From Paludibacter sp. (GTDB lineage Bacteria; Bacteroidota; Bacteroidia; Bacteroidales; Paludibacteraceae): a DNA stretch of 43,181 nucleotides. Positions 4,462 through 12,614 of this stretch are shown in pieces (position 1 is the stretch's first letter; every line of letters begins with the position of its first letter). The stretch is taken from NCBI GenBank assembly GCA_027364655.1, contig DAHXOX010000057.1, positions 1 through 43,181 on the forward strand, written 5' to 3'. The translations under genes were made by a program, and so were the position numbers. Under the pieces are notes generated by a model. It saw nothing but the letters and a program-made list of their open reading frames with translations. It was not told where the DNA came from and searched no databases.

Positions 4462-6198
4462 ATGAATAATTTTATTGTTTCAGCTCGAAAATATCGTCCG
4501 GCTACCTTTGCTTCGGTGGTTGGACAAGCTGCTTTGACAGCCACTTTAAAAAATGCTGTTAGAACAAACCATTTAGCCCATGCTTACTTGTTTTGCGGGC
4601 CTCGTGGCGTAGGGAAAACATCATGTGCGCGTATTTTTGCTAAAACTATTAACTGCGAGCACCTTACATCTGATTTTGAAGCATGTAACGAATGTGAATC
4701 TTGTCGCACATTCAATGAACAACGTTCCTATAATATTCATGAATTAGACGCAGCGTCTAATAATTCAGTTGACGATATTCGTTCCTTAGTGGAACAAGTC
4801 CGTATCCCACCACAAATTGGACATTATAGCGTTTATATCATCGATGAAGTGCACATGCTTTCGCAATCGGCGTTTAACGCTTTTCTAAAAACACTGGAAG
4901 AACCGCCTGCCCATGCTATTTTCATTCTTGCCACAACTGAAAAGCATAAAATCATTCCCACGATTCTTTCTCGTTGTCAAATATATGATTTTGTGAGGAT
5001 TGGCATTAATGACATTGTGGAGCATTTGATGCAAATTGCTACCAACGAAGGTATTGCGGTAGAACCTGAAGCATTGAATGTCATTGCTCAAAAAGCGGAT
5101 GGCGGAATGCGCGATGCACTTTCGATTTTCGATCAAGTCGTCAGTTATTGTGGAGATAAAATCACGTACCAAGCGGTGATTGAAAACTTGAATGTGTTAG
5201 ATTATGATTATTATTTTCGATTAACGGATAGTTTTTTAAGCAATCGGGTTGCCGATTCCTTGATATTGTTCAATGAAATCCTTAATAAAGGGTTTGATGC
5301 TCAAAATTTTGTAACCGGAATAAGTAGCTATTTCCGCGATTTACTTATGTGCAAAGATGGGGCAACGGTTATATTACTCGAAATGGCAAACGCCATCAAA
5401 GATCTTTACGTCAAGCAGGCCCAGCAATGCAGTACCGAATTTTTATATTACGCTTTAACGCTTTCAAACGAGTGTGATATAAATTTTCGAACCAGTCGTA
5501 ACAAGCGTCTGCTTACCGAACTGCTATTGATCAGACTTTGTCAATGGAATGATAAAAAAAAAGATCAATTAGCTGACAATGCTGAACCCAAACCAATTGA
5601 AAAAATTAATGTGGTAGTAAATAATACGGCTACTGCGCCTAATAGTGGCGTTCAAAACACACCCCCAACATCTACCGGTTACTTAAAGGCGAAAACGCCA
5701 TCCCCTACTCCGTTACCTGAAACTTCAAAACAGGCATCTTCAATTCCACCTTCTATTTCAATTCATTCTACTGCTGCAGACTCATCTTCGCAAGTTTCTG
5801 ATATTGCACCGCCAAAATACAAAGCTAAACAACACGAATCGTTTACTGAACAAGCTTTGCATCAAGCATGGCGAACGTTTGCCGATGAAAAAATACCAGA
5901 AAAAGTACATGCTAAAAATTTCATGATCAATAGATTGCCAAATTTGGTGAATGAAGATACCATACGCATTATGTTCGATCAACCTTTGCAAAAGAAATCG
6001 TTTGCCGAAGTTCAAGATGAGCTGAAAACCTATTTAGCAGAACAACTTCGCAATGATTATCTTACATTTGAAGTAGAAGTCGATGAAACTGATCAAAAAA
6101 ATGCTCTTTTTACATCACAAGATCGATATGCATGGTTAGCAGAAAAAAACAGCGCTTTAGGACATCTGAGGAAAGAATTTAAACTCGAAATTGATTAA
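4462..6198 (+). CDS. dnaX: DNA polymerase III subunit gamma/tau
   Basis: This 578-aa AAA+ ATPase is the motor subunit of the clamp loader and, in its long form, links polymerase cores at the fork. Visible motifs are the Walker A loop 'GPRGVGKT' (46-53), four zinc-binding cysteines (65, 75, 78, 81), Walker B 'VYIIDEVH' (124-131) and the sensor 'ILSRCQIYDF' region. The collar domain runs to about residue 362. A proline/serine/threonine-rich linker (about 375-450) and a less conserved C-terminal tau-like part follow. At 5554-5562 nine A in a row encode Lys365-367; both alternative frames stop within five codons, so a gamma-sized product of about 370 aa is possible (see findings). It has its own gap upstream and appears to be transcribed alone. 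Confidence 0.96.
   Translation: MNNFIVSARKYRPATFASVVGQAALTATLKNAVRTNHLAHAYLFCGPRGVGKTSCARIFAKTINCEHLTSDFEACNECESCRTFNEQRSYNIHELDAASNNSVDDIRSLVEQVRIPPQIGHYSVYIIDEVHMLSQSAFNAFLKTLEEPPAHAIFILATTEKHKIIPTILSRCQIYDFVRIGINDIVEHLMQIATNEGIAVEPEALNVIAQKADGGMRDALSIFDQVVSYCGDKITYQAVIENLNVLDYDYYFRLTDSFLSNRVADSLILFNEILNKGFDAQNFVTGISSYFRDLLMCKDGATVILLEMANAIKDLYVKQAQQCSTEFLYYALTLSNECDINFRTSRNKRLLTELLLIRLCQWNDKKKDQLADNAEPKPIEKINVVVNNTATAPNSGVQNTPPTSTGYLKAKTPSPTPLPETSKQASSIPPSISIHSTAADSSSQVSDIAPPKYKAKQHESFTEQALHQAWRTFADEKIPEKVHAKNFMINRLPNLVNEDTIRIMFDQPLQKKSFAEVQDELKTYLAEQLRNDYLTFEVEVDETDQKNALFTSQDRYAWLAEKNSALGHLRKEFKLEID
5554..5576 (+). promoter_or_regulatory. Candidate frameshift / transcriptional slippage site in dnaX
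   Basis: Nine A residues (5554-5562) sit directly after the clamp-loader ATPase/collar region. A -1 shift gives R-S-I-S then TGA at 5574-5576. A +1 shift gives I-N then TAG at 5570-5572. TCAATT at 5565-5570 can pair with AATTGA at 5595-5600 just downstream. Position and outcome match known dnaX gamma-forming sites, but the event itself is inferred. Confidence 0.5.
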
Positions 6199-11995: not shown

Positions 11996-12002
11996 TGACT
12001 TG

Positions 12003-12614
12003 ATGAGGGTTCATTCACAACTAAAACACCAGTTTAAGTCTCTCTTATTCCAAAAAAAAAGCATAACAACTGCCCTGCTGGTGGTTGTTTTGTGCTTTAT
12101 GGTTGCTTGTTCTGATATACATCCTGCTACGGTTACTATTTCAATCGATCGTGCAAAATTGCCAAGCATGATTGCAACGCAAGTGACAACGTTAATTTCT
12201 GATTCCGGCATTACACGTTATCGCATTACAACACCAGTGTGGTACATTTATGATCGTGTAGCAGAGCCATATTGGTATTTTCCGAAAGGGATATTCTTAC
12301 AGCGTTTTGACGAAAGCTATCATGTCGACGGATCAATTCGTTGCGATAGTGCACGTTATTTTCAAGGAAAACAGCTTTGGGAATTAGATGGGAAAGTAAA
12401 AGCAATGAATTTACAAGGAGAAACCTTTGAGACGCCACAGCTATTCTGGAATCAACGTGACCAACGGATCTATTCCGATTCATTGATTCGTGTGACTCAG
12501 CATGTAAAAATCATTATAGGAGTCGGTTTTGATTCAAATCAAGCTCTCACAAAATATACAATTCGCAACCCTGAAGGAATTATTCCTGTAAATCCAACAA
12601 CACCTCCCAAATAA
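12003..12614 (+). CDS. lptC: LPS export ABC transporter periplasmic protein LptC
   Basis: The 203-aa protein has an N-terminal hydrophobic segment (about 20-36) ending 'CFMVACSD', so it may be a lipoprotein with Cys36 or stay membrane anchored. The periplasmic part matches the Bacteroidota LptC form: 'DSGITRYRITTPVWYIYD', 'YFPKGIFLQRFDE', 'DSARYFQGKQLWELDGKVK', 'NLQGETFETPQLFWNQ'. LptC receives lipopolysaccharide from LptBFG and passes it to the LptA bridge. A TTG three bases upstream could also start the frame; ATG at 12003 is preferred. It lies in the coaX run, 9 bp before the CBS transporter. Confidence 0.88.
   Translation: MRVHSQLKHQFKSLLFQKKSITTALLVVVLCFMVACSDIHPATVTISIDRAKLPSMIATQVTTLISDSGITRYRITTPVWYIYDRVAEPYWYFPKGIFLQRFDESYHVDGSIRCDSARYFQGKQLWELDGKVKAMNLQGETFETPQLFWNQRDQRIYSDSLIRVTQHVKIIIGVGFDSNQALTKYTIRNPEGIIPVNPTTPPK

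Follow-up and report, generated by a model that had tools for sequence, protein, structure and literature searches.

The nine consecutive A residues at positions 5554-5562 of the window (the whole 43,181-nt stretch of Paludibacter sp. DNA that was analysed) most probably form a programmed transcriptional slippage site, by which the single dnaX gene would give rise to both the tau and the gamma subunit; judged from sequence, we put the probability of this reading at roughly 0.8. The tau reading frame of this gene lies on the forward strand at 4462-6198, codes for 578 amino acids plus stop, and matches the dnaX profiles NF011531 (831.8 bits, cut-off 685) and TIGR02397 (over residues 6-360). The part common to gamma and tau, which comprises the AAA+ ATPase, lid and collar (domains I-III, residues 1-364), is encoded at 4462-5553, with the Pfam match to domain III (PF12169) covering residues 241-364. 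The run provides codons 365-367 (AAA AAA AAA, K365-367) directly after domain III, 63% along the coding sequence, and is followed by the tau-only part (5563-6198), which would be read if the run in the mRNA holds 9 or 9+3n A. On the same strand the +1 frame is closed by a TAG at 5570-5572 and the -1 frame by a TGA at 5574-5576. The sequence-only reading had placed the run and both stops exactly to the base, and its products of 371 and 369 amino acids are reproduced in silico with mRNA runs of A10 (ending at the TGA) and A8, respectively; A11 gives 370 amino acids, ending like A8 at the TAG, these shorter products being of about 42 kDa, and A9 and A12 give 578 and 579 amino acids (65 kDa). The predicted C-terminus of gamma in the window is KKKRSIS or KKKIN.

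We propose that RNA polymerase fills its RNA-DNA hybrid of 9-10 bp with rA:dT on the run and may then realign, which would create an mRNA pool of mixed run lengths. Ordinary translation of the transcripts with 9+3n A would yield tau, and the remaining transcripts, whichever of the two other frames they are in, would lead the ribosome to a stop after a few codons and thus yield gamma, cut right after the clamp-loader collar. A nascent hairpin adjoining the run, predicted under a strict count for about half of the class genes, probably stimulates the slip and may do so by opening the hybrid at its upstream edge and by hindering backtracking. We infer that it is the polymerase and not the ribosome which slips, that the hairpin has this role, that gamma is made and used, and also what the ratio of the products would be.

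Conservation of the A run

All eight genomes of the genus, that of the window included, carry A9 or A11 at the site (loci L001 and L005-L010, plus L114, which is ended by its contig edge). The search of the family returned matches in 325 of 358 genomes, and a run of A9 or longer is present in 37 of the 41 distinct loci read, an uneven set in which 29 relatives were taken as loci and 11 were added for short or closed matches; the search of genome contigs contributed the best 80 loci of 594 stretches. An even sample of the class Bacteroidia comprised 148 genomes, of which 146 matched and 144 were usable, two having no match and two partial matches (G516, G630) being left out. Here, A9 to A12 occurs within 300 nt after residue 345 in 126 of the 144 dnaX genes (A9 in 22, A10 in 90, A11 in 13 and A12 in 1, the mode thus being 10), and 18 have no run of at least nine A. 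The sequence-only reading had looked to close relatives that might break the run; at both the genus and the class level it is largely or entirely kept. Scores of the run-bearing class genes refer below to 124 of the 126, L183 and L256 being omitted because their tau part was unavailable.

Elsewhere in the run-bearing class genes, runs of at least nine A are found nowhere upstream and five times downstream, in 219 kb of sequence, and the 124 scored genes contain 40 further positions at which a choice of synonymous codons would allow a run of this length, of which only 5 have one. AAA makes up 71.5% of the lysine codons elsewhere in the class genes. The lysine codons at the site itself (296 AAA of 327) were discarded as evidence, since the site was picked by its run and the share is therefore high by construction. 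The data suggest that the same putative slippage site has been kept across most of the class, often just 3' of a hairpin.

Relatives without the A run include L176, L177, L178 and L187 as well as L038, L042, L044 and L062. At the equivalent place L038, L042 and L062 carry G4 or G7 followed by CGTAGC, which holds a TAG in the -1 frame. These three loci were what came up when 24 relatives, the majority of which lack the run, were searched for an alternative slippery motif, and no firm result was obtained.

Stop codons and the reading frame of tau

Both frames other than that of tau reach a stop within 10 codons in 118 of the 124 scored genes, as compared to 27.4% of 6200 random positions, and the median distance to the stop is 2 codons as opposed to 9 at random positions; these figures include 39 inverted genes, in which frame 0 closes at the end of gamma, with one of the two stops present by definition. 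The closure of both shifted frames, which had been pointed out for the window before, is thus far above chance in the class. In 85 genes tau is in frame 0, as in the window; among these, a stop within 5 codons closes the -1 frame in 85/85 and the +1 frame in 71/85 (null expectations 43% and 35%, respectively), and within 10 codons the numbers are 85/85 and 82/85. Similarly, in genes with tau in the -1 frame a stop follows within 5 codons in frame 0 in 35/36 and in the +1 frame in 25/36 (p = 0.001). Under ribosomal -1 shifting the third frame would be free of constraint, whereas slippage, in which any number of A may be added or dropped, constrains it as well.

The frame that encodes tau is not the same throughout. 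Of 298 loci 294 gave a match and 289 were distinct, and counts over these 289, or over the 244 with a run, mix the sets. In 204 of the 289 loci frame 0 stays open through the tau tail and in 74 it is closed just after domain III, with no intermediates; in the remaining 11 the stretch ends before this can be read. A tau-tail profile derived from the open genes was used to place tau in the 74 closed ones, of which 57 have it in the -1 frame, 9 in the +1 frame and 1 in frame 0, and 7 gave no match. Eight of the nine +1 genes have the run, L080 being without it, so that among the 244 run-bearing distinct genes the closed ones have tau in the -1 frame in 57 cases and in the +1 frame in 8. These eight span five families, that of the window included (L115, L116, L119 and L120; L153; L196; L205; L275). 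A run of at least nine A is found in 71 of the 74 closed as compared to 167 of the 204 open genes, in a set whose loci were partly chosen because they looked closed. In the class sample 140 genes could be scored for tau: 101 have it in frame 0, 36 in the -1 frame and 3 in the +1 frame. The inverted genes thus make up 39/140 of the class genes and, as all 39 have the run, 39/124 of the run-bearing ones, and both layouts coexist inside one family.

On a tree of domains I-III the tau frame has changed at least 22 times among the 124 run-bearing genes, as compared to a mean of 34 and a minimum of 31 changes in 50 sets with shuffled frame labels. This indicates that the frame has memory and yet has been switched often while the run persisted. 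The DNA-encoded frame of tau would be free to change because transcripts in all three frames would be made anyway. In the inverted genes, which account for more than one in four of the class sample, transcripts without a slip would yield gamma, and tau would depend entirely on slipped ones. On balance we favour, with clearly less confidence than we place in the slippage site itself, the wider view that the class carries an old hairpin-plus-A10 slippage cassette which supplies all three frames, that the tau frame drifts back and forth, and that over a quarter of the class obtains tau only from mis-copied transcripts.

Two inverted loci, L121 and L123, each from a single species, have tau in the -1 frame through their run or phase and share the genus code of L011-L013, in which tau is in frame 0; they may represent either recent inversions or assembly errors. 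Frame 0 of L049 stays open for 181 codons past residue 345 and the best match to the tau tail lies further downstream in the -1 frame, as might result from a second shift or from an error.

RNA structure around the run

The predicted nascent-RNA hairpin of the window is located upstream of the run at 5524-5547 on the forward strand, with arms at 5524-5531 and 5540-5547 and a loop at 5532-5539. It has 8 pairs, two of them G-U, and the minimum free energy of the 32 nt preceding the run is -6.8 kcal/mol. Its end is 6 nt short of the run, whereas for the class and the family a stem-loop is seen adjacent to the run on its 5' side, and most family loci that were displayed have a stronger hairpin closer to the run. 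The three nearest relatives of the window fold weakly before the run (-2.7 to -4.2).

In the class the 24 nt before the run fold with a mean z of -1.20 and 40% of the genes are below -1.5, as compared to mean values of -0.02 to -0.23 and 6-12% for 24-nt windows further upstream. Recoding of the 8 codons before the run with synonymous codons weakens the fold from -4.91 kcal/mol in the native sequence to -3.23; the corresponding mean z is -0.89 as opposed to -0.21 in windows elsewhere in the genes. For 12 codons the values are -0.42 and -0.21, the hairpin signal thus fading in longer windows. Moreover, 57 of the 124 genes have a perfect stem (at least 4 pairs, -2.5 kcal/mol or better) whose end lies 0-5 nt upstream of the run, as compared to 9-30 genes (mean 17.5) in eight bins further upstream, and 67 genes are without a perfect stem under this strict count. 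An artefact of the A run could have underlain the fold of 45 nt at -40 (mean z -1.36), but an artificial A10 in random gene windows gives only -0.52, and the signal held in retests without the run and with synonymous codons. An intrinsic terminator was rejected as well, as A instead of U follows the hairpin, and on the opposite strand the run of T is ahead of it.

The sequences of the stem vary widely among the loci. Within the family of the window (37 loci giving 29 distinct rows), with the structure taken from one of the sequences, 77% of the pairs are kept as compared to 20-44% when the structure is slid along the alignment. There are 11 doubly changed cells, a number reached in 0 of 500 shuffles, which ignore relatedness; when slid by -1, the structure also has 3 pairs that are doubly changed, in 6 cells. 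A Flavobacteriales-like group (29 loci, 24 rows) shows 63% pairing as compared to 36-52% when slid, a value reached by 7 of 500 shuffles, and its double changes are not above those of shuffles (151/500 reach them). Beyond the class, a sample of the phylum (148 genomes, 146 matched; 30 loci and 20 added, 13 of other classes, 8 for a closed frame 0) contributed eight genes of other classes, L163-L170, which were chosen for their closed frame 0. They have A9 or A10 plus a stop in the third frame as well; the 5' hairpin is not clear in these eight, 3 of which fold at -5 kcal/mol or better.

Downstream of the run the sequence-only reading had proposed a pairing of TCAATT with AATTGA (5565-5570/5595-5600). 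This pairing is absent from the predicted fold of 5563-5622, which has a z of -1.76, and by eye five of the six bases of its 5' arm recur only in L005 and L006 among seven relatives of the genus. The hairpin that is supported is thus a different one and lies upstream. In the class the downstream 50-nt folds have a mean z of -0.63 as compared to -0.23 in controls, with 26% as opposed to 12% below -1.5.

Polymerase, ribosome and known systems

Could the ribosome rather than the polymerase do the shifting? A -1 ribosomal frameshift at A_AAA_AAA or A_AAA_AAG that makes gamma as in E. coli would find its heptamer in all scored genes (A_AAA_AAA is in frame in 124/124 and A_AAA_AAG in 29). It would also agree with the tighter closure of the -1 frame (85/85 within 5 codons), the location of tau in the -1 frame in most inverted genes (57), the mildly stronger 3' folds and an excess of upstream Shine-Dalgarno-like 4-mers (24/124 as compared to 13.0 expected, sd 3.2, the largest of 200 draws being 22). 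However, it would have no need of a stop in the +1 frame, which nevertheless follows within 5 codons in 71/85 genes, a single -1 shift cannot reach tau in the 8 run-bearing +1 genes, a heptamer would suffice where the mode is A10, and the clear structure is 5' of the run, where a hairpin next to the site of the shift is reported to dampen -1 frameshifting in human cells, but to promote +1 shifting in yeast (PMC6321510). The A10 mode equals the length of the RNA-DNA hybrid, which is given as 9-10 bp for the Thermus polymerase (PMC5009743), and was counted toward slippage of RNA polymerase. The use of frames in both directions, the closure of both frames, the hybrid-length run and the 5' hairpin together favour polymerase slippage, and we consider a ribosomal -1 shift improbable. 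Of the two models that the sequence-only reading had offered, that of Thermus also fits the window better than that of E. coli: only A_AAA_AAA and no A_AAA_AAG is found in frame here, both shifted frames are closed, and the genome contains both tRNA-Lys(UUU) and tRNA-Lys(CUU) (30 of 37 tRNA matches were typed), the presence of two lysine tRNAs being the state linked with polymerase slippage in Thermus (PMC5009743).

Ribosomes that slide on poly-A codons could reach both frames at translation, and sliding on lysine-encoding A stretches has been described with E. coli kinetics (PMC4363877). But a hairpin adjoining the run would presumably be covered by the ribosome, and the inverted genes, which need a slip even for tau and are many among the relatives, would depend on sliding of high efficiency; we regard this mechanism as very improbable. 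A functionless AAA-rich lysine linker that yields no gamma might be read from AAA being the commoner lysine codon and from the 21 long A/T runs in genomic ORFs described below. It leaves the rarity of long A runs elsewhere in dnaX, the stops in both frames and the inverted genes without explanation and has next to no probability. The same low rating applies to the idea that the closed frames are assembly or sequencing errors. Homopolymers are error-prone and L121 and L123 could be such cases, but errors do not readily account for 57 genes of the -1 type and 8 run-bearing ones of the +1 type, for a layout that is uniform across all scored members of f7, f9, f37, f46 and f68, or for inverted genes in the single-contig genomes G414, G452 and G566.

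Several elements of the proposed polymerase slippage are already in print, namely slippage in Thermus dnaX, the E. coli frameshift and inverted two-ORF dnaX genes. In Thermus thermophilus the polymerase slips on an A9 run that is located seven-eighths along dnaX (PMC5009743, PMC1088944, citing Larsen et al. 2000). As far as these sources describe it, this gene resembles that of the window in its A9, in having tau in one frame and near stops in both others, and in the two lysine tRNAs; in contrast to it, the run here directly follows domain III and many genes of the class have a 5' hairpin. Of these two cases, slippage has been studied by experiment in Thermus alone, the class genes being known here from their sequences. 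Antonov et al. 2013 (PMC3711429) list 17 two-ORF dnaX genes from 12 genera, 12 of them with poly-A and nine with A10, which are described as -1. They share with the inverted genes that gamma ends in frame 0 and that tau needs a slip, as well as the A10; different from these 17, the genes studied here include +1 types and both layouts within one family, and they have a 5' hairpin, which the available text of that paper does not mention for two-ORF dnaX. The E. coli gene, where a -1 ribosomal frameshift at A_AAA_AAG produces gamma and tau (PMC3711429, PMC5009743), has the pair of products in common with the window, in which, however, the +1 frame is closed too and structure is clearer 5' than 3' of the run. 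Finally, the transposase of a Roseiflexus IS is reported to slip with a one-base deletion on T5C5, stimulated by a nascent-RNA stem-loop adjacent on the 5' side (PMC5009743). This position of the stem-loop is the one seen at the class level here, whereas the slip motif is A9-A12 and resides in a housekeeping gene, not in a mobile element. A literature search, mostly of titles and abstract openings and with subscription papers largely outside it, returned none on the Bacteroidota site or on a dnaX 5' hairpin. The class-wide reach, the two-directional switching of frames with its +1 type and the 5' hairpin therefore look like the new part, the species list of Antonov et al. not being covered by this comparison.

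If the reading is correct, a large bacterial class relies on RNA polymerase slippage for a subunit of its replication machinery, and in many species tau itself requires a transcription error. Inverted dnaX genes may then be mistaken for truncated or frameshifted ones. Some 20 natural changes of frame would offer a test of how the efficiency of slippage sets the ratio of gamma to tau, the purpose of gamma would become testable in a new class, and the hairpin plus A10 would provide a simple design for testing hairpin-driven slippage.

The dnaX run is not the sole case in the genome, which contains 57 A/T runs of at least nine, 21 of them inside ORFs of at least 100 codons. These are few, and within the window A9 matches number 2 as compared to 10.7 expected from dinucleotide shuffles, which is in line with the selection against slippery runs described in PMC1088944. 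The second A9 of the window (12052-12060) is located near the start of an ORF of 204 amino acids (12000-12614), whose true start codon may be downstream. L360 (G000:C149:5645-5653) has a sense A9 close to the C-terminus of a 502-codon ORF, with stops in the shifted frames after 2 and 0 codons and an upstream fold of -4.8. A second candidate for slippage is L338 (G000:C62:4844-4852, minus strand), where a sense A9 is found at about codon 215 of a 371-codon ORF, the shifted frames stop within 2 and 4 codons, and the upstream fold is moderately stable (-5.8).
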